This document shows, one piece after another, positions 7,567 through 19,278 of a stretch of 27,448 nucleotides of DNA (position 1 is its first letter; every line of letters begins with the position of its first letter). The notes below the pieces were generated by a model. The model saw only the letters and a program-made list of their open reading frames with translations, was not told the origin of the DNA and ran no database searches. The stretch is from a virus, in the IMG/VR virus record IMGVR_UViG_3300020463_000110, positions 1-27,448 of that record. One strand, given 5' to 3'. The translations under genes and the position numbers were made by a program.

Positions 7567-7591
7567 GCGGGTGTTATCACCCGCTTTTTTT
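7567..7591. terminator. Rho-independent terminator, probably bidirectional
   Basis: A 7-bp GC-rich stem (GCGGGTG at 7567-7573, CACCCGC at 7578-7584) with loop TTAT is followed by seven T on the plus strand. Read from the minus strand, the same stem is followed by CTTTATTTTT. It lies between convergent gp32 and the tape-measure-like gene. Confidence 0.9.
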
Positions 7592-9149
7592 AATCAACTT
7601 GGATTAAAGTAACAGCATCTACCGGTGAAGGCATTGTAATAACTTGCATAACACCGCCCATATTGTTCTCTGTGTGTGACGGGGCAATCACGAGCGGGCC
7701 CATACCACTTGAGTTAAATCGATTTGCATCTGGTATACTATCTGGAGGAATAGCGTCAATCATCATTTCAGTAGGTGTCTTACTTGTATATACCAGTCCT
7801 CCATGCACCTGATTAATTGCTTCTCGAGCGGCGCCCTGAAAATCACTGTATCCCATTATTGGGGACAGTTGGGGTGCATCTTCGCCGTAAATTTGACTCA
7901 TTCCGAAATTAGCTATTGCATTTGGCAAATTTAACGCACCTGCAAATGCATTTTGAAGCATGTCCACAAGACCTAATGGAGAGGTCAGGACACCGACTGC
8001 AGCTTTAGTCCCCCTACCTTGTACCATGTTTAATCTTGGATCTCCTTGTGCCAGTACAGATTCTATTGCAACACCAAAAGGAAGAGCTAATTTTCCAAGA
8101 GTACTTATAGCCTTATCAAAGCCCTTCACCGATCTAATAAGGTTCTGGGCCTTTTTTAATCTTGATTCTTTTGTTTCAGGTGCGACCGGGGCATTAGTAT
8201 TTGCAGGTAGTGTCATTCTTGGGTCAGATTTCATCATTTGTACTAGAGGTCCAAAGCCACCTGGCCGGACTTTAGGTGGAGGTGGTTTTGGGGCATTTTT
8301 CTTTATTTCATCTAGAGCAGGTCCTACATTGCTAGCAGCAAAAGGATTTTTTAATCCTAACATACCAGCTACCGCAGCTCCCATAGCTACAGCTGCCCTA
8401 CCAGCTCCTACCTTACCTAGAAAAAATAGCAGTCCCCTTCCGAGGAATTTTAGAAAGCCTGGTGCAGCTATACCTGCAGCAATAGCTAAACCATCTCTAA
8501 AAGCTGCAGTTTCTGTGTCAATCTGAATATCGGTCAATGGGATATTGTATTTCCCATCTTCTTTACCAAAAAACTCGTTAAACTTTTTAATACCAGTTTC
8601 GCCGTATGCACCTATTACACCTGCAATAGCTGGACCAAAAAGTCCTTTAGCTCCTAGTAGTTTTGTAGCTATAGCTGCTTGACCACCTTGAGTTAATCTT
8701 TTCTTTGTCTCTTCAGTAAAATCAGTTTTTAAAATTTCATCATCAATATAATCAACTAATCCTCCTATGGCTTGTTCACCGAATTTAGACATGACTGCAA
8801 TTGCTGGAGCAAATCGTAATAATTTACCGGCACCTAATCCGATAGTACCTGCAGCTAGACCCATTGCTCCCATAAGTTTTTCAGCAATCGCACCGATTCC
8901 AAACCCGCTAGGTAATCCTAAACCTTGTTTTAAGCCTGCAGTAAAACTTGATGGACGTTGAGCTTTAAATTTTTGTTCGCGTTCTTTTTGCTTTGATTCA
9001 AGTTCCTCTTCTCTGCGATCTCCACCACCTTGTTGCCTATCTAAGAATTCACCAAAGCGATCTTTAAGACCTGCTGTAGTCCTAGTACCATCTTCGATTG
9101 AAGAAGTCTGATCTCTTAATGTGTCATTAATTTGAGCTAATGTTGCCAT
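7590..9149 (-). CDS. Tail tape-measure / hub-like protein (gp29 position)
   Basis: 519 residues. An N-terminal charged stretch (about residues 35-65, rich in Glu, Arg, Lys and Gln) is likely coiled coil. Residues about 70-270 are long Ala/Gly/Leu-rich hydrophobic helices typical of tape-measure proteins. A proline-rich linker (K-P-P-P-P-K) follows near residue 288, then a mixed C-terminal domain. It follows a tail-tube-like gene and gp26 with an AUG-less minus-1 frame, which is the classical position of the tape measure. T4 gp29 is 590 residues, so a slightly shorter tail would fit. The ATG at 9149 overlaps the stop of the minus-1 frame (TAATG), with AAGGA upstream. Family assignment rests on composition and order rather than a clear motif. 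Confidence 0.55.
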   Translation of the reverse strand: MATLAQINDTLRDQTSSIEDGTRTTAGLKDRFGEFLDRQQGGGDRREEELESKQKEREQKFKAQRPSSFTAGLKQGLGLPSGFGIGAIAEKLMGAMGLAAGTIGLGAGKLLRFAPAIAVMSKFGEQAIGGLVDYIDDEILKTDFTEETKKRLTQGGQAAIATKLLGAKGLFGPAIAGVIGAYGETGIKKFNEFFGKEDGKYNIPLTDIQIDTETAAFRDGLAIAAGIAAPGFLKFLGRGLLFFLGKVGAGRAAVAMGAAVAGMLGLKNPFAASNVGPALDEIKKNAPKPPPPKVRPGGFGPLVQMMKSDPRMTLPANTNAPVAPETKESRLKKAQNLIRSVKGFDKAISTLGKLALPFGVAIESVLAQGDPRLNMVQGRGTKAAVGVLTSPLGLVDMLQNAFAGALNLPNAIANFGMSQIYGEDAPQLSPIMGYSDFQGAAREAINQVHGGLVYTSKTPTEMMIDAIPPDSIPDANRFNSSGMGPLVIAPSHTENNMGGVMQVITMPSPVDAVTLIQVD

Positions 9150-9343
9150 TATAAGTTCCTTACGTTTCTTCTTTTTTCTTCTTCGGCTTGTTCTTTTAGA
9201 TCTTCAGAAAGCATCGTGATGTAGATCTCCCTCTCCCATGGTAACATTCCTTCAATCTCTGTTAAGGAATATTTATGATTTTGTATTAACTGATAATTTG
9301 TTTTATAGTAGTTTATCAGAGTTTCATGAGAGAGGTTTATGAG
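9149..9343 (-). CDS. AUG-less minus-1 frame extension of gp26 (gp51-like; likely reached by programmed frameshift)
   Basis: From the slippery heptamer at 9349-9343 the minus-1 frame stays open for 64 codons to a TAA at 9151-9149. That stop overlaps the ATG of the tape-measure-like gene. There is no ATG, GTG or TTG in this frame near its 5' end; the only ATGs are far inside (codons 33 and 44). The product has L-S-H-E-T-L-I-N-Y-Y-K, then Y-S-L-T-E-I-E-G-M-L-P-W-E-R-E-I-Y, and a charged Glu/Lys/Arg tail, so it looks like a genuine protein. The fusion with gp26 would be about 300 residues. In T4, gene 51 follows gene 26 as a separate gene; here the equivalent seems to be made as gp26-gp51. This parallels the lambda tail chaperones G and GT. 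Confidence 0.75.
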   Translation of the reverse strand, partial: LINLSHETLINYYKTNYQLIQNHKYSLTEIEGMLPWEREIYITMLSEDLKEQAEEEKRRNVRNL

Positions 9344-10050
9344 AAAAAATCCTGGATACCTCGCAGTGTATGTATATTATCGTGATTACATGATGTACAT
9401 TGGAATTTAATATCGTGTGTCAAATTTGGTACGTCATTTACAAATTCCATAATCTTATCAAACTGTTCATTTGTAAGAGAGCCTAGAAAGTTTTCTACGT
9501 CTTCTTTAGGCTCATCTGCAAAATTAAAGTTTTCTTCTTCAGACTGTAAACTATCTAAACAACCCAAAGTCAAATAATATAAAGTCTCTGAGTATCCTGC
9601 ATCTTCTGGTAAGTCAGTCTTAACCATATGAGAATACATCGGATATCTTAATTTTAATGTATAGTTTTCATTTAATACTATTTTATTTTTATTGCTCTTT
9701 GGTACGTCTATTTGTATTTTATCTAACTCAACTGTATAGTCATTTGGTATTTTACATTCAGTACATTTTACTGTTATTTTTGATGTCTCGCCGGCAGATT
9801 TTGCACGGATCCTTGTAAAAATATATTCTACATCAAATGTTGCCAGAGAAAGTGGATCGATCGGATCTATTACACATGATTTAATCGTATCTACAATAGA
9901 TGATAAAATTTGTTTATCGTCTTGTGACTCTAACGCAATAAGTAATACTTTTTGTTCTTTTACTAAAAATGGTCTATATCTAACTTCCTGTTTCGTTGAT
10001 GGTATAGTAAGAGAGTACTTAGGTACCTCGTTCACTGTTGGTAAAGGCAT
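9337..10050 (-). CDS. 26: Baseplate hub / tail assembly protein gp26
   Basis: 237 residues from the ATG at 10050; an earlier in-frame ATG at 10065 lies inside the previous gene. The start overlaps the upstream stop as TAATG and has GGAG nine bases before it. The N-terminus (M-P-L-P-T, then Y-R-P-F-L-V-K-E-Q-K-V-L-L-I-A-L-E-S) matches the T4 baseplate gp26 family, which helps assemble the central hub. Two C-x2-C pairs, V-K-C-T-E-C-K in the middle and F-Q-C-T-S-C-N near the end, probably form a zinc ribbon. The last codons contain T TTT TTC two codons before the stop, an efficient minus-1 slippery sequence. Gene order (tube-like, gp26, minus-1 frame, tape measure) suggests a tail chaperone role. 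Confidence 0.85.
   Translation of the reverse strand: MPLPTVNEVPKYSLTIPSTKQEVRYRPFLVKEQKVLLIALESQDDKQILSSIVDTIKSCVIDPIDPLSLATFDVEYIFTRIRAKSAGETSKITVKCTECKIPNDYTVELDKIQIDVPKSNKNKIVLNENYTLKLRYPMYSHMVKTDLPEDAGYSETLYYLTLGCLDSLQSEEENFNFADEPKEDVENFLGSLTNEQFDKIMEFVNDVPNLTHDIKFQCTSCNHDNIHTLRGIQDFFS
9343..9349 (-). promoter_or_regulatory. Minus-1 ribosomal frameshift site (T TTT TTC)
   Basis: On the minus strand the gp26 zero frame reads GAT TTT TTC TCA TAA, so T_TTT_TTC is in the canonical X_XXY_YYZ register, one sense codon before the stop. A Shine-Dalgarno-like GAGG (9362-9359) lies nine bases upstream, close to the spacing that stimulates dnaX-type shifting. I see no strong downstream hairpin. 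Confidence 0.75.
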
Positions 10051-10655
10051 TATACAGATCTCCAATCCTTAAATGATAATTGCACGGTCAATTCAACCAT
10101 TCCACCTGGTTCATTGCTAAATTCTATAGCGCTCATACTTGTTGGAAACGCTTTTTCTAAAATACAAGTGTATTGAACTTGTGCGTCTTCTAGTCGCTGT
10201 TGCAGATTGTCAAACTCTGCACTGTTATTTAATACACCTGATGCTAATATTCTTTCAGCTTGGCCTAATACATTTTTTGGCATACTAAGCTGTTGCACTC
10301 GTACTTCAAACCCATATTCATCTGGGTAATTTAATTCTTTTGTCTCAAAGTTGATTATTTTACTTTGCCAAAATTCAAAGTATTGTTTGATGTCGTAATC
10401 ATTTGGTACATGAAAAGTCAATGATACATCGTCTGTTGCATACGTATATGCTAGTTTATGTTGTTTCATACCAACAATGCGCTCATTTGTAAGAATCTGT
10501 CTAAAGGGAAGTTGTGCCGATTTACATAAAACATTTAATCGACGAGTAGTGATACCAAATACTCCATCGACTGACGGTAAGAATACACGCCATAAAGATG
10601 TTTTTGCAAGTCCGGTACTAAACTCTCCTTTGAGATCGTCAATGCTATATGTCAT
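10050..10655 (-). CDS. Tail tube-like protein (gp19/gp54-type tube initiator)
   Basis: 201 residues of the T4 tail-tube fold family. Recognisable pieces are L-C-K-S-A-Q-L-P-F-R-Q, D-V-S-L-T-F-H-V-P-N-D-Y-D, an A-F-P-T-S-M-S-A-I-E-F-S-N segment, and a C-terminal E-L-T-V-Q-L-S-F-K-D-W-R. These strings are typical of tube proteins and of their baseplate paralogues that start tube growth. T4 gp19 is 163 and gp54 is 320 residues. Its place beside gp26 and the tape-measure-like gene, rather than beside the sheath gene, favours a baseplate tube-initiator role over the main tube, but the sheath region is outside the window. The ATG overlaps the upstream stop (TAATG). Confidence 0.75.
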   Translation of the reverse strand: MTYSIDDLKGEFSTGLAKTSLWRVFLPSVDGVFGITTRRLNVLCKSAQLPFRQILTNERIVGMKQHKLAYTYATDDVSLTFHVPNDYDIKQYFEFWQSKIINFETKELNYPDEYGFEVRVQQLSMPKNVLGQAERILASGVLNNSAEFDNLQQRLEDAQVQYTCILEKAFPTSMSAIEFSNEPGGMVELTVQLSFKDWRSV

Positions 10656-11254: not shown

Positions 11255-11737
11255 CTATTTCTTCTTTTTCTTTGGAGGAGGTAGCGGCTTTAGTTTCTTT
11301 ATTGGTTTAGGCATAATACCCATAGTTTGCAGAGTATTCTCTGTCCAGATTTGAAACTCCCACTTTCTATCTTTTGCATATGATTGTGCAGCTTCCCACT
11401 TATTCATATTCTTGACATATGTAAATGCCTCATTAATATATCGCTTTGTACGTTTAGATCCTGTGGGTGGTTTTGTTTCTCTATCAGGTTTGATCTCAAC
11501 TAATAGTACTCTGTCCTCAAGAACTATTTTAAGATCAGGAAAATACCGATGATAACGTTTATCGGCATCATAATAATATGGCACAACGACTTCTTCGCTC
11601 GTCCAAGATTTTACTTTTGGATTCTCATCACACCACTTAAAGCAATGTCTTTCCCACATTGATCTAAAAATAATGTTATTATGGTCTCCACCATACTTCT
11701 TTGGGTTCTTTGGTTTGTATTTACCTGAGTATGCCAT
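11255..11737 (-). CDS. 4: Head completion nuclease-like protein gp4
   Basis: 160 residues (T4 gp4, also called gp50, is about 150). The N-terminus Y-S-G-K-Y-K-P-K-N-P-x-K-Y-G-G-D and R-S-M-W-E-R-H match the gp4 head-completion family. A PD-(D/E)xK-type nuclease core is visible: Glu29, P-D at 67-68 (F-P-D-L-K), and E-x-K at 81-83 (V-E-I-K-P). This layout is also known from TnsA-like enzymes. In T4, gp4 finishes DNA-filled heads before tails join. The C-terminus is a Lys/Pro-rich tail. It is transcribed away from gp48 and shares a short divergent promoter region with it. No clear ribosome-binding site is seen before its ATG. Confidence 0.8.
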   Translation of the reverse strand: MAYSGKYKPKNPKKYGGDHNNIIFRSMWERHCFKWCDENPKVKSWTSEEVVVPYYYDADKRYHRYFPDLKIVLEDRVLLVEIKPDRETKPPTGSKRTKRYINEAFTYVKNMNKWEAAQSYAKDRKWEFQIWTENTLQTMGIMPKPIKKLKPLPPPKKKKK

Positions 11738-13559: not shown

Positions 13560-14976
13560 ATCATATACGCCCTTTGACCCTCATGAATTTGAGATGCGCC
13601 GTGCTGTACTATCTACACAGCGCAATGATCATGTTGTTGACATCACTAATACACTAATAGAACTAGTAATATTTGAACATATTGAGCGGGCATATCTTAC
13701 TGGTAAACTTTCATATATCGATACCGGTAGATCTATAGAGAGTATGGATTTTCAAGGTACTGAATTTTTAGAGGTTGAATTTGCATTACATACAACTCCA
13801 CATAAAGTTACAAAACGATTTGTTGTAAGAGAAGTTGAAAGCATTGTACCTACAACAGATACTACTGATACGGTTACGCTCGGTATAGTAGATTATGATT
13901 CATATTTAAATACACTTATTAACGTAAATAAGATGTACGAAGGTAAACCAAGTCAGATTATCGATAATATTTTAATAGACTCGTTTGACAATAAAAGAGT
14001 AATAAGAGCTGGAGATGCTAGTCAGATTCCATCTTTAATAGATGAATATAATACTGCGTCAAATCCAAATGCAGATGAGTTAAATTCATATAGACAATTG
14101 GCTCAAGAGTTACAATCATCGTTTCGATACATCGTTCCAAATCTCAATCCATTAGAAGCAATTGAAGTAATAAAGAGAAGAACGACTGGATTAACTGGTA
14201 CACCATTTTTCTGCTATGCATCACTGGCTGATAACAATTTAAGATTTTATGATTTATATAGTTTATTGCAAGAACCTCCTATTAATGATGGTGATCCATT
14301 TATTTTTTCTTCACAATTATCACAAAAAGCTCCAACTACTGGTGCAGGACTTGCAAGACAAATAAGTAGAATAAAAAATCCGAAGAATGCTAATACATTA
14401 GCTTTAATTATGAATGGAGATGTAGGTTCTTTCTACGAATATGTAGATACTACACATGGACTAGAATATAGATTTAATTATGATTTAGAAAAAGTTATGT
14501 CTAATCTACTTACAAGTAATTCATATCCTGCAGCTGATACTAGATCTCAATTTAAAAATACACCTATTAGTGAAATGCTCGCTGAAAGAATTACAAGAGT
14601 AGCTACAGGAAATATATATGATGAAGATGTAAAAAATTTACATGAAGATACGAGTACACAAAGACATTCTGCAAAAGCGATATCACAATCAGTAAGAAAT
14701 CTACTTGGTAAAGCTGTCTTAGAAATAGAAGTTCCAGGACTTCATATGATGCCTCAAGGCGGTAACAAAACTTTGGGAAGAATTCTTTCGATTGTATCTG
14801 TTGCAGACACTGAACAATTTGTTGAAGTGTTTGATAGAAAAAGAACTGGTGATTATATGATATATACTGCGCGACATGTATTAACTCCAAACAACCATAC
14901 GGTTGGTTTAAGTCTTGTAAAAATTGCTAACTACAGAGGTAATACTAAACTTAGTGGCAGCGGGAGTGTTTCTTAA
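13552..14976 (+). CDS. Baseplate hub protein, gp27-type
   Basis: 474 residues. The layout matches hub proteins of the T4 gp27 / Mu gp44 fold. An N-terminal beta domain (L-I-E-L-V-I-F-E-H-I-E, then F-L-E-V-E-F-A-L) is followed by a G-K-P-S-Q-I-I-D-N-I-L helix. The pair P-N-L-N-P-L-E-A-I and T-P-F-F-C-Y-A-S then leads to a second beta domain with R-I-L-S-I-V and Q-F-V-E-V-F-D-R. Such trimers sit between the gp5 spike and the tail tube. T4 gp27 is 391 residues; direct identity is low by eye, so the assignment also uses gene order (before the gp5 OB-fold gene). Its stop overlaps the next ATG as TAATG. Confidence 0.65.
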   Translation: MAKSYTPFDPHEFEMRRAVLSTQRNDHVVDITNTLIELVIFEHIERAYLTGKLSYIDTGRSIESMDFQGTEFLEVEFALHTTPHKVTKRFVVREVESIVPTTDTTDTVTLGIVDYDSYLNTLINVNKMYEGKPSQIIDNILIDSFDNKRVIRAGDASQIPSLIDEYNTASNPNADELNSYRQLAQELQSSFRYIVPNLNPLEAIEVIKRRTTGLTGTPFFCYASLADNNLRFYDLYSLLQEPPINDGDPFIFSSQLSQKAPTTGAGLARQISRIKNPKNANTLALIMNGDVGSFYEYVDTTHGLEYRFNYDLEKVMSNLLTSNSYPAADTRSQFKNTPISEMLAERITRVATGNIYDEDVKNLHEDTSTQRHSAKAISQSVRNLLGKAVLEIEVPGLHMMPQGGNKTLGRILSIVSVADTEQFVEVFDRKRTGDYMIYTARHVLTPNNHTVGLSLVKIANYRGNTKLSGSGSVS

Positions 14977-15860
14977 TGTCATATTATGGAGACAAAACTC
15001 GTTGGTTTATTGGTGTAGCAACTAATAACTTAGATCCATTACAACTTGGTCGAGTACAGGTCAGGATATATGGTATACATTCGCGAAGAACTTTAGATAT
15101 TCCGAATTATGCATTACCGTGGGCAACTGTATTACAACCAAATACAGCAGGTGGTACATCAGGAATCGGTATGATGCCACAGATTTTACCAGGCGCTCAA
15201 GTGTTTGGGATGTTTTTAGATGGTAAATCTTCACAGGTACCATGTATATTAGGCGTAATGCCTAAAATAGAACTACCAACAGAGCAGCAATTATCAAAAC
15301 AACAAGATAAAGCAATACAATATGAAATTGGTTATGACGCCGGTCAAATCGATCCACGGTTAGCTCAAGCTGCAGGATTAACTAATATTAATAATATTAC
15401 AGGTGAGTTAGTAGGAACAGAAAGAGTAGAACAAGCTTTTAACTTTTTTACATCAAGGGGTTTTACAGCAAAGCAATCAGCTGGTATAGTTGGAAATCTT
15501 ATTGTTGAATCTGGATCATCCGATCTTCCAGAACACGGACCAAGAGGAGATGGAGGACAAGCTGCGGGTATTGCTCAATGGCATCCTGGACGTAGAAAAA
15601 TTTTTGAACGAGTATATGGTAAACCGTGGTGGGATAGCACGTTCACAGATCAGCTAAATTTTATTGTTTGGGAACTAAGTAATTGTGATAGTGAATCAGG
15701 ATGTTTAAATAGAAACGCAGGTCGAGATTTAAAACAGACTAATAGTGTTGCGATCGCAGCAAGCATCTTTGATGAACAATATGAAAGAAGTTCAGGCGAA
15801 GCACGACAAGATAGAATAACATACGCGTATAATGTATATAACAAATTTGGTTTAAAATAA
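14976..15860 (+). CDS. 5: gp5-type hub OB-fold protein with tail lysozyme domain
   Basis: 294 residues. Residues about 8-100 are the gp5/VgrG-type OB domain (W-F-I-G-V-A, L-G-R-V-Q-V-R-I-Y-G, A-L-P-W-A-T-V-L, G-A-Q-V-F-G-M-F-L-D-G). Residues about 145-290 match the Phage_lysozyme2 (phage tail lysozyme) family: A-F-N-F-F-T-S-R-G-F-T-A-K-Q-S-A-G-I-V-G-N-L, then E-S-G with likely catalytic Glu178, then G-I-A-Q-W-H. It would sit under the tail tube and cut peptidoglycan during DNA entry. T4 gp5 joins OB, a different lysozyme, and a beta-helix in one 575-residue chain. Here the beta-helix is in a separate gene. Coupled by TAATG at both ends. Confidence 0.8.
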   Translation: MSYYGDKTRWFIGVATNNLDPLQLGRVQVRIYGIHSRRTLDIPNYALPWATVLQPNTAGGTSGIGMMPQILPGAQVFGMFLDGKSSQVPCILGVMPKIELPTEQQLSKQQDKAIQYEIGYDAGQIDPRLAQAAGLTNINNITGELVGTERVEQAFNFFTSRGFTAKQSAGIVGNLIVESGSSDLPEHGPRGDGGQAAGIAQWHPGRRKIFERVYGKPWWDSTFTDQLNFIVWELSNCDSESGCLNRNAGRDLKQTNSVAIAASIFDEQYERSSGEARQDRITYAYNVYNKFGLK

Positions 15861-17686
15861 TGGCTAGCTTTACTCGATATCAATCTACGCTCTCAGCATA
15901 TAATCAACGGTTAGGTACTGCAGATTTTAGTAATACGGCACCTACAGTAGAGGGTGAATATAATTCTAAATATACATCAGGTTTAGGAACAGATGTAGGA
16001 CAAAAATTAAATGGTTTTCAATCTGTTACAAAAACAGAAAACTATTCTGGTCAATTTAAAAATATATTACTGGGACTGGCACTTGTTAAACTCACTGAAG
16101 AAGTTGCAGGTGAAAGTTTAACAGAAGTATTTGATGATGCCTTTGAAGGAATAGGATCTGGCAATGCTAATGTTAATAATACATTAACAGCTGCAGCAGC
16201 TCTTACTCTTTTAACTGGATCTAGTCCTGCTGCAGGATTTTTAAAATCATATTATGGCGGTAGTTCGGGTCTTGCTGTCGGTAATCTTTTATCAAAGGCA
16301 ACCGGTAAAGATGTAACTTCATTAGTATCAGCTATACAAGGTGTCCATTCAGCAGGAAATGCAGATCAATTTGTGGCTGCTGGATTATCTCGATCTTTAG
16401 GTGCAGTACTTGCTCCAGTTATCTCTAGTTTTAATTCTAAAGTAGATACAGAAATAGGAACTGCAATTGCTCCGGTTCTACAAGCAGTAATGGATATTAG
16501 TGCAGGACCGATAGGAATACTTATTGATGAATTAACAGGTAATAAACTAAAAACACTTCAAAATCAAAATATCGTAAGCTTATTATCTCAAGGGAAATAC
16601 GCAGAAGCAATACTATTAACTTCAAATAATTCTAGTAGTCCTTACAATCTTATTGAAGAAACTTTACTTGGCATTGATACTAAAGTTTCAACTAGGATTA
16701 CATATACCGGCTCTAATCAAGTTTCGCCATTTGACATTGGTCAAAATGATAATAAGTGGGAAGGAGCTGAAACTAAAACATGGAAAGATCCGGATGCTCA
16801 GACTTATAGTAATATAGGCACAGCAGGAATAGGTGCTAGAAGCGGTATACAAACTGGTGACACAGGTATAAAAGTAACATCTCAGTCTGAAGCAGATAGT
16901 GTTATGCTAAATGAAGCTTCAACTGAAGCAGAGAAAGAAGCTGCACGTGCATATTATGCAAGCGGAATTAAAACAGACACGACCGTAAGTACCACATTAA
17001 TTGTGACATCTGAATCTCAAGCTTTTAGTATTTTGCAGAATCCACTTTCAAAACCGGATGAAAGAGCAGCTGCTCAGGCATATTTTGGTGCCGTGGCACC
17101 CGCTAGTGATAGTGTGTATAAGTTTACACGTGTAAATGGTCTAGAAGAATTAGAAGCTGAATTTAGATCTGCGACACGTGATATAACAGAGGTTGTAGTT
17201 CATTGGTCTGCACACTTTTTAAATCAGGATATTGGAGCAGAAGAGATTCATGGCCAACATAAAACCGACGGCTTTGACGGTATCGGATATCATTATGTAA
17301 TAAGAAAAGATGGTACTATTGAAAGAGGTCGGCCAATCAATAAGGAAGGAGCGCATGCAAAAGCAAACGGTCACAATGTATATAGTATTGGCATAGCATT
17401 CGTTGGCGGATACACAATTAATTCTAGTCGCAGCCGAGCTCGTCCTCCATCTGGTGTAGAGTCTTTTACTGAGCCTCAAATGAAAGCGCTTAGAATGTTT
17501 TTCAATGCCTTTTATAAAGTATGGCCTGGTGGACAAGCATGGGGTCATAGTGATACTGATAAAAATAAAATAGATCCTGGTTTTTCTGTTCCTGAATTTG
17601 TAAGATCTAAGTTTGGTAAAGAAAATGTGTCAGCGTCTGGTACAGATAAACCACTCTCTCCAGAACAGATAGCAGGAGGCTCGTAA
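15860..17686 (+). CDS. Tail-associated N-acetylmuramoyl-L-alanine amidase
   Basis: 608 residues. The first 330 are low-complexity, Ala/Gly/Ser-rich and helical, possibly structural. Two degenerate repeats of about 40 residues follow (about 338-377 and 381-420; shared pattern (V/I)-T-S-(Q/E)-S and E-(R/K)-x-A-A-(R/Q)-A-Y). The C-terminal domain (about 440-585) is an Amidase_2 / PGRP-type fold: V-V-H-W-S with His448, G-I-G-Y-H-Y-V-I-R-K-D-G, G-H-S-D with His563, and K-I-D-P-G with Asp572. Together these form the zinc site expected for cutting the bond between MurNAc and L-Ala. Its place between the gp5 lysozyme and the spike gene implies a tail-borne hydrolase rather than a free endolysin. Confidence 0.8.
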   Translation: MASFTRYQSTLSAYNQRLGTADFSNTAPTVEGEYNSKYTSGLGTDVGQKLNGFQSVTKTENYSGQFKNILLGLALVKLTEEVAGESLTEVFDDAFEGIGSGNANVNNTLTAAAALTLLTGSSPAAGFLKSYYGGSSGLAVGNLLSKATGKDVTSLVSAIQGVHSAGNADQFVAAGLSRSLGAVLAPVISSFNSKVDTEIGTAIAPVLQAVMDISAGPIGILIDELTGNKLKTLQNQNIVSLLSQGKYAEAILLTSNNSSSPYNLIEETLLGIDTKVSTRITYTGSNQVSPFDIGQNDNKWEGAETKTWKDPDAQTYSNIGTAGIGARSGIQTGDTGIKVTSQSEADSVMLNEASTEAEKEAARAYYASGIKTDTTVSTTLIVTSESQAFSILQNPLSKPDERAAAQAYFGAVAPASDSVYKFTRVNGLEELEAEFRSATRDITEVVVHWSAHFLNQDIGAEEIHGQHKTDGFDGIGYHYVIRKDGTIERGRPINKEGAHAKANGHNVYSIGIAFVGGYTINSSRSRARPPSGVESFTEPQMKALRMFFNAFYKVWPGGQAWGHSDTDKNKIDPGFSVPEFVRSKFGKENVSASGTDKPLSPEQIAGGS

Positions 17687-19278
17687 TGACGACTGAAAAT
17701 GATGACGTACTAGATCGACAAAAGAGATTTGGTAATAGAATATATGATGAAGGTGTTTATCCTAGTGGCTATCAAGATCCGTCTGGGGTGTATCCGCGTA
17801 CTCAATATTACTATGAATCTTCGATTAACAAAGCTTCTCGTGGATTGATAAGAAATGATTTATCAACTAATGGTGGTATACCTACATTACAAAAAAGAAA
17901 TATTCTAAATGAATATGTAAAAAATCCAAGATATGCAGCTAGTAATGCAGATCCTGTAGGAATAACCAGCGAGGGTGTTCCCACTGGTGCAATCTCCGGA
18001 GAGACAGTATTTAATTATATTCCACCACAAGAAGAAGAAAAAAGACGATATTCTACATATCCAAAAAATCAAGTGATAGAAACGCCAGGTGGTCACGTAA
18101 TAGAATTAGATGATACTATTACAAACGAACGTATTCTTGTTAGACATCAGTCAGGAGCAGGAATAGAAATAAAACCTGATGGCTCAGTGTTTGTTAGCAG
18201 TACATCAGATGTATTAATCAGTGCAGGTAATGATCAGCATGTAGTTGTTGAAGGTAATGCACATATGACATATCAAGGTGATTTAAACGTTGATGTAGCC
18301 GGTGATTATAATCTTAGTGTCGGAGGCAATAAACTACAAATTGTGACTGGTGATCATATCTCAGAGATAGATGGAGCGCGCAAGAGTAACATTGCACTTC
18401 AGGATAACTTAACCGTCAAAGGCCACCAGTATAATACAGTTGTAGAATCAAAAACAGATCTAACTCTTGGTGGTTATACACATGCGGTCAAAGGTAACTT
18501 TGAGCAAGCAGTTGAAGGCGAGATGAAACTCCATGCATCAGGAGCTCAACGAATCACGTCACAAGTTAGACAGAATCTAACCTCACCTGATACAAATATT
18601 TTTGGAAATAAGTTGACGGTTATTGGCGAGGAAGGAACAATTGGCAGTGAAGAAACAATTATGTATGCTCATAACATTTACGCTGGTCATACAATTTTTG
18701 TTGGTGATGGTGCAAACGGATCAGGTACAGTTAATGTCCATACAATAAGGGCATCAGATATTGTTGCTTCAAATAGTATGACTGCTCCCACATTTCACGG
18801 AGATTTAGACGGAACGGCTACAACTTCAACTATTACACAATCTCAAGGATATAGTGAAAACACTCAAGGATCTGCAGGACCAATCACTAACAATCCTAGT
18901 AATGCATTACCAGATGATACAACTTCTACTTGTTTACCTAATACAGCCTTTGCAGAGATATATGTAGCGTCTGAATACGGTATACAAGATGTAAAAGTAG
19001 ATCCAGAAAATGAATTAAAAAAATTAATTAATCAAACTACTTTGTCTGGTGGAGTAAGCGATAGACCATTGACAACTAGTGAAATAAGATCTAAACTAAG
19101 AGATGAAAATAATAAAAATAATGAAGACTTTACAGGAAAACAGGTGGCAGAAAATAAATTAAATCCAGAATCTTTAGGAGCTAAATCTGTCCCTGCAGAA
19201 ACAGGTAGAACTGCTAGTAATGATCCAACCGTAGTAGAAAATATTACTGTCATTGGTCCTAATGGAGCATACGCATGA
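17686..19278 (+). CDS. Baseplate central spike beta-helix protein (gp5 C-terminal / VgrG-type)
   Basis: 530 residues. After a Tyr-rich N-terminus, residues about 125-150 (N-Q-V-I-E-T-P-G-G-H-V-I-E-L-D-D-T) match the start of VgrG and gp5 needles. A long run of short strand repeats follows to about residue 300 (for example I-E-I-K-P-D-G-S-V-F-V, L-N-V-D-V-A-G-D-Y-N-L-S-V-G-G), the pattern of an intertwined beta-helix spike that pierces the outer membrane. The C-terminal 100 residues contain P-L-T-T-S-E-I-R-S-K-L-R-D, a domain I recall at the end of marine-phage spikes. It complements the short gp5 gene, which lacks this part. Start overlaps the amidase stop (TAATG). Confidence 0.75.
   Translation: MTTENDDVLDRQKRFGNRIYDEGVYPSGYQDPSGVYPRTQYYYESSINKASRGLIRNDLSTNGGIPTLQKRNILNEYVKNPRYAASNADPVGITSEGVPTGAISGETVFNYIPPQEEEKRRYSTYPKNQVIETPGGHVIELDDTITNERILVRHQSGAGIEIKPDGSVFVSSTSDVLISAGNDQHVVVEGNAHMTYQGDLNVDVAGDYNLSVGGNKLQIVTGDHISEIDGARKSNIALQDNLTVKGHQYNTVVESKTDLTLGGYTHAVKGNFEQAVEGEMKLHASGAQRITSQVRQNLTSPDTNIFGNKLTVIGEEGTIGSEETIMYAHNIYAGHTIFVGDGANGSGTVNVHTIRASDIVASNSMTAPTFHGDLDGTATTSTITQSQGYSENTQGSAGPITNNPSNALPDDTTSTCLPNTAFAEIYVASEYGIQDVKVDPENELKKLINQTTLSGGVSDRPLTTSEIRSKLRDENNKNNEDFTGKQVAENKLNPESLGAKSVPAETGRTASNDPTVVENITVIGPNGAYA

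Follow-up and report, generated by a model that had tools for sequence, protein, structure and literature searches.

In phage T4, gp26 and gp51 are known as separate proteins. How, then, is a gp51-like domain translated when it follows a gp26-like gene in the minus-1 frame and has no usable start codon of its own near its 5' end? This question arises in the stretch of DNA analysed here, the 27,448-nt window that covers positions 1 to 27,448 of the IMG/VR virus record IMGVR_UViG_3300020463_000110. The explanation that best accounts for the whole locus, and which we regard as very probable from comparison with related sequences, is that it is the tail assembly chaperone gene of a T4-like marine myovirus, in which a minus-1 shift yields both gp26 and a gp26-gp51 fusion of 300 amino acids (aa).

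Slip site and minus-1 frame in the gp26-like gene

The features on which this explanation depends are as follows.

9337..10050, minus strand: gp26-like gene for a short tail assembly chaperone (TAC-N), 237 aa, identified with PF12322, PHROG 150 and hhalign
9343..9349, minus strand: slippery heptamer T_TTT_TTC, from the sequence and its conservation in relatives
9337..9339, minus strand: 0-frame stop TAA of gp26, one sense codon (TCA) past the heptamer
9359..9362, minus strand: Shine-Dalgarno (SD)-like GAGG, exactly 9 nt 5' of the heptamer, where the anti-SD pairing signal in relatives peaks
9149..9349, minus strand: minus-1 frame (TAC-C domain, gp51-like), 66 codons counted from the heptamer, identified with PHROG 634, the C-terminus of PHROG 150 and the ratio of nonsynonymous to synonymous substitution rates (dN/dS)

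The gp26 product matched PF12322 (T4_baseplate; E 5.5e-57) and PHROG 150 (E 7.8e-61), and hhalign related the gp26 family of the window to T4 gp26 (E 4.5e-16). Its start codon is the ATG at 10050-10048 on the minus strand; a TTG at 10065, which a mechanical listing of open reading frames had offered as the start, is superfluous because this ATG suffices. A search by sequence found no relative of solved structure.

The gene ends in GGT ATC CAG GAT TTT TTC TCA TAA. A preliminary description, made from the letters of the window, had drawn attention to the T_TTT_TTC in register one sense codon before the stop, to the GAGG nine bases ahead of it (9362-9359), and to a protein-like minus-1 frame that is open without a usable start near its 5' end and stops at the TAATG of the next gene. 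Each of these features was found again. The first ATG, GTG or TTG of the minus-1 frame is codon 34 from the heptamer, inside the conserved domain; its stop TAA (9149-9151) overlaps the ATG of the following gene; and its product is recognisable as a gp51 domain (PHROG 634, E 4.8e-24). The same product matched PHROG 150, the profile of the gp26 family, at its C-terminal end (232-282; E 2.9e-08). As for the public families themselves, PHROG 150 and PHROG 634 appear to be one frameshifted chaperone split in two, with columns 232-282 of PHROG 150 representing the minus-1 domain. The predicted fusion would have 300 aa, compared with 237 aa for gp26, and would carry the junction peptide GIQDFFLINLSHE....

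Conservation of the heptamer and of the minus-1 frame

We collected 342 relatives, consisting of the 80 best IMG/VR relatives, cultured phages and the loci found by further scans, and worked with dereplicated sets of 71 representatives (for the codon and SD tests) and 198 representatives (the wider set). T4, Klebsiella phage KP1079 and Dickeya phage LIMEstone1, known exceptions that are organised differently, were left out of the heptamer count. The same arrangement of gp26, heptamer and minus-1 frame was found in all 80 best IMG/VR relatives. Each of the 341 relatives whose sequence extends over the site has T_TTT_TTN in the 0 frame, a short distance ahead of the gp26 stop; one further locus is truncated before the site. 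The carriers include KVP40, P-HM1, P-SSM2, Pelagibacter phage Mosig, Sinorhizobium phiN3, Stenotrophomonas Moby, Aeromonas AsFcp_4 and Agrobacterium Atu_ph04. Among the 198 dereplicated loci, the heptamer ends with C in 110 cases, with T in 74, with A in 13 and with G in one. The 0-frame stop lies 0 or 1 codon past the heptamer in 180 of these representatives and 8 codons past it in 17. Loci with the distant stop include L003, L013, L021, L046 and L085 (Mosig), so that the slip site is not always adjacent to a stop.

Without exception in the 71 dereplicated relatives, T is the last base of the codon that precedes the two Phe codons, and TTT encodes the first Phe, whereas elsewhere in gp26 GAT and TTT make up 71% and 75% of such codons, respectively. 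These two fixed synonymous choices place the heptamer far beyond chance (approximately 10^-25 on the assumption of independent sequences, which does not hold for the relatives). In addition, T_TTT_TT occurs at just 6 of 14,129 other gp26 codons. The minus-1 frame has a median dN/dS of 0.27 over 115 pairs, with no pair above 1, and its codons are kept as protein from the first residue past the heptamer. The purifying selection that the preliminary description led one to expect in this frame is therefore present. A minus-1 stop lies no more than 2 codons 5' of the heptamer in 45 of the 198 representatives; in these, the open frame begins almost exactly at the slip site and no upstream start is possible.

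RNA elements around the slip site

SD-like pairing reaches its maximum some 6-15 nt 5' of the heptamer; it is above the same-protein recoded control in 59 of the 71 relatives. Downstream, we scored, for each position in turn, the choice among synonymous codons in 60 marine relatives. Outside the heptamer, the strongest constraint fell on codons 3-6 after it (AAC CTC TCT CAT) and on codons 36-38 (TGG GAG AGG), two stretches that are complementary to each other. The Leu codon is CTC in 49 of the 60 relatives, although CTC is the rarest Leu codon. The elements that these stretches form, together with a second type found in other loci, are listed below.

9325..9335, minus strand: 5' arm of a long-range stem, CCUCUCUCAUG, starting 7 nt past the heptamer
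9230..9240, minus strand: 3' arm of the long-range stem, CAUGGGAGAGG, pairing with CCUCUCUCAUG over 11 bp
9290..9319, minus strand: predicted inner hairpin 1 of 7 bp within the long-range stem, from the fold of the window only
9243..9273, minus strand: predicted inner hairpin 2 of 10 bp within the long-range stem, from the fold of the window only
L084 3178-3260 and 34 loci like it, of the P-SSM2 type (cyanophages): local hairpin of 11 bp, AGTATGGCTCA/TGAGTCATACT

The 118 nt past the heptamer in the window fold with a minimum free energy of -30 kcal/mol, compared with -15.1 kcal/mol for shuffled sequences (z -5.4), and the stem in this fold encloses the two hairpins. When 61 sequences were analysed with RNAalifold, the long-range helix was the sole helix found; 26 cells were changed on both sides of it, and none of 500 shuffles scored as high. 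The double changes are C-G to U-A at two pairs, in 18 and 8 sequences, and all of them are at third codon positions. All nine inner pairs are formed in 77% of the relatives, compared with 2.3% of same-protein recoded sequences, and the duplex energy is -13.2 kcal/mol, compared with -4.0 kcal/mol after such recoding. Independent contrasts on the gp26 protein tree gave concordant and discordant changes of about 5 and 0 at one pair and 4 and 0 at the other, with no concordant change at crossed control pairs, and on a wider tree the covariation of pair 42-141 held (6.3 vs 0.1). For the group of the window itself, we also considered and rejected a conserved hairpin formed locally in the 70 nt downstream (mean z only -1.24).

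Three results weigh on the other side. The single-pair sign tests on the smaller tree fall short of 0.05. On the wider tree, the covariation of pair 39-144 is weak (3.5 vs 1.3), which is a real limit, although absence of the stem from some lineages would lead one to expect it. Finally, at least 8 of the 9 pairs are formed in 116 of the 198 representatives, so the stem is not universal, and the protein alone would give this many pairs in about 17%. The 35 loci of the P-SSM2 type carry in place of the long-range stem the local 11-bp hairpin, with a spacer of 5 nt past the heptamer; at least 10 of its 11 pairs are formed in 32 of these loci, which are close relatives, compared with 1.2% after same-protein recoding.

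Both arms of the long-range stem encode conserved residues (N-L-S-H and P-W-E-R), and the complementary stretches CCUCUCUC and GGGAGAGG might accordingly be a by-product of protein sequence or codon usage, or an RNA element with another role, such as in mRNA stability or in translation of the tape-measure gene. Since the protein fixes where the arms lie relative to the heptamer, their position alone is no proof of a role. We nevertheless consider this explanation rather unlikely, because the pairing rarely arises when the same protein is recoded, the covarying sites are synonymous third positions, a spacer of 7 nt is typical of frameshift stimulators, and a different helix stands at the same place in the P-SSM2 lineage. 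We think it reasonably probable, with appreciable room for doubt, that marine T4-like chaperone genes carry a frameshift signal of a kind undescribed in tail genes. It would consist of a covarying stem that closes a folded loop of 84 nt and begins 7 nt past U_UUU_UUY; other lineages would have a local hairpin of 11 bp in its place, and the T4 group two gene copies instead of a shift. The downstream stimulator would then have been replaced at least once, with the slip site staying fixed.

Proposed mechanism and alternative explanations

Sequence comparison shows the heptamer, a coding minus-1 frame, the lack of another start and the covarying stem. It strongly supports a programmed minus-1 frameshift, and with it the earlier proposal of gp26 plus a fusion of about 300 residues, made in the manner of lambda G and GT at a locus between the tube gene and the presumed tape-measure gene. 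We propose that most ribosomes would terminate at 9337 and release gp26 (TAC-N, 237 aa), and that a minority, with two tRNA-Phe on UUU UUC, would slip back one base at U_UUU_UUC and read 64 further codons, giving the gp26-gp51 fusion of 300 aa (TAC-NC). To judge by their positions, the SD-like stretch 9 nt upstream and the 11-bp stem 7 nt downstream would each probably raise the efficiency of the shift. A role of the short and long forms as tail assembly chaperones is suggested by homology with T4 gp26 and gp51 and by analogy with lambda G/GT, in which case many short and few long copies would keep the tape-measure protein open and recruit tube subunits. A set ratio of gp26 to fusion is plausible.

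Several observations speak against a frameshift as the only source of the gp51 domain. An ATG, GTG or TTG is present near the start of the minus-1 frame in 75 of the 198 representatives, and in KVP40 and Moby an ATG overlaps the gp26 stop. The gp26 of LIMEstone1 (Ackermannviridae; L089 2504-3459) has no heptamer and ends in GAA ATT TTC ATT TAATG, where an ATG belonging to the gp51-like domain overlaps the stop of gp26; this is possibly a third way of making such a domain. KVP40, Moby and LIMEstone1 fit a separate gp51 gene that is translated by coupling, with ribosomes re-initiating at or after the gp26 stop, and separate short gp51 genes are indeed annotated in public records. In KVP40 and Moby, re-initiation could therefore add product. 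An independent start is very improbable as the main route, because the window and most relatives lack one: the window has no ATG, GTG or TTG until codon 34, within the conserved domain; no ATG occurs up to codon 8 in 135 of the 198 representatives; and in 123 of them there is no ATG, GTG or TTG from the upstream minus-1 stop to codon 8 past the heptamer. Re-initiation would also be at odds with protein conservation that begins at the first residue past the heptamer and would leave the invariant T_TTT_TT unexplained.

The frame change could also arise in transcription, if RNA polymerase slips on the run of T, and not at the ribosome. A run of T8, enough for some slippage, is present in 64 of the 198 representatives. 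The run is only T6 in 124 of them and in the window, which indicates that selection keeps the minimum for a ribosomal heptamer and not a long run, and the conserved SD-like element and downstream stem suit a ribosomal mechanism. As a general route, polymerase slippage is thus disfavoured, and we give it marginally less credence than re-initiation. A sequencing or assembly error, conceivable at a homopolymer run in a metagenomic contig, was rejected as practically negligible, since the identical break at the same bases recurs across independent contigs, numbering in the hundreds, and across isolates for which different sequencing methods were used.

The proposed minus-1 shift also bears on annotation. 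Among the public records examined, some have a truncated gp51 called from an internal start (34 aa in Phage C48C1, 44 aa in Mosig), others leave the gp51 region unannotated, and none has joined gp26-gp51 frames. Cyanophage gp51 was described as having only about 20% of the length of other gp51 proteins (Sullivan et al. 2010; PMC3037559), which would be explained if the gp51 domain is made by frameshifting. The annotation could thus be corrected in several hundred marine T4-like genomes, in which this domain is called a truncated separate gene, hypothetical, or nothing.

Genomic setting

The genes on the minus strand follow in the order head closure gp4, DNA end protector gp2, tail tube, gp26, minus-1 frame and a gene of 519 aa. 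The opposite, plus strand carries gp32 and T4-like baseplate genes. The two neighbours of the chaperone locus are as follows.

10050..10655, minus strand: tail tube gene (gp19-like), PHROG 45 tail tube, E 8.8e-27
7590..9149, minus strand: gene of 519 aa in the tape-measure position, directly after the chaperone gene, placed by synteny only

The stop of the tail tube gene overlaps the gp26 start as TAATG. Profile scans of the 519-aa product gave no convincing family match, tape measure included, and the gene is therefore called tape measure by position only. The placement of gp26 between tube and tape measure accordingly has PHROG 45 on its upstream side and position on its downstream side. A scan of the window against Rfam gave no match, and a tRNA search of it found none.

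Two further observations concern other genes of the window. The gp4-like head closure protein (11255-11737, minus strand) matches a TnsA-like endonuclease N-terminal domain (PF08722, E 2.2e-15). In the region 14976-19278 of the plus strand, PHROG 430, the gp5-like hub/lysozyme family, is matched by two separate genes (14976-15860 and 17686-19278), which flank a gene of 608 aa with an amidase-like C-terminus.

Comparison with known systems

In T4, gp26 (208 aa) and gp51 (249 aa) are encoded by divergently oriented genes on opposite strands, and both are listed as hub assembly chaperones (PMC3004832). PF12322 is matched along its full length by T4 gp26 (E 8.8e-64) and by residues 1-201 of T4 gp51 (E 3.9e-52), and the C-terminus of gp51 matches PHROG 634, the domain found in the minus-1 frame of the window. 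Since both proteins match PF12322 and gp51 has an extra domain, the short and long forms of T4 are two diverged gene copies. The preliminary description was thus right that T4 has two separate genes; T4 gp51, however, is a full-length gp26-like protein with a C-terminal domain, and not the C-terminal piece alone. The proteins of T4 and the window are homologous, and with two genes T4 needs no shift. The window has no T4-type separate gene for a full-length long form, its minus-1 frame encoding the C-terminal domain alone, and no second gp26-family gene was found among the window proteins scanned, the contig being a fragment. Frameshifting is said to be conserved in several T4-like groups, and T4 genes 26 and 51 are reportedly separate short and long genes.

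That such a frameshift had not been described for T4-like phages, as first supposed, did not hold, since papers citing Vladimirov, Gautam and Davidson (2022) credit the T4-like chaperone genes, their frameshift signals and the two-gene arrangement of T4 to that work. PMC12846349 cites it for slippery signals of the poly-T kind in the TAC-N genes of T4-like phages, and PMC10885494 for some T4-like phages that do without frameshifting by having a short gene and a long one. An earlier review (PMC5009743) described G-T shifting as widely conserved, with T4 the exception. Because these citing papers report it for T4-like phages, the frameshifted chaperone of the window is an instance of a known phenomenon. 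As far as they describe them, the chaperones of Vladimirov et al. (2022) are the same genes, with gp26 as the short form and the gp51 domain in the long form, and the window adds an uncultured member. For the conserved RNA elements downstream, no description of either stem or hairpin was found in the literature searched, in which Vladimirov et al. (2022) was represented by the papers citing it. Coming in two kinds, these elements offer a natural comparative system for how phages set the ratio of short to long chaperone.

Lambda gpG and gpGT are likewise a short and a long product made by a minus-1 shift. The window differs in its gp26, which has about 240 aa with Cys pairs, and in its heptamer U_UUU_UUC, that of lambda reportedly being another one. 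In the minus-1 signal of Escherichia coli dnaX, an SD-like element lies upstream of the heptamer and a structured RNA a few nt downstream. The window shares this three-part layout, with an SD-like element, U_UUU_UUY and a structure 5-7 nt downstream, whereas its heptamer is different and its stem is long-range, with a self-folding loop of 84 nt.
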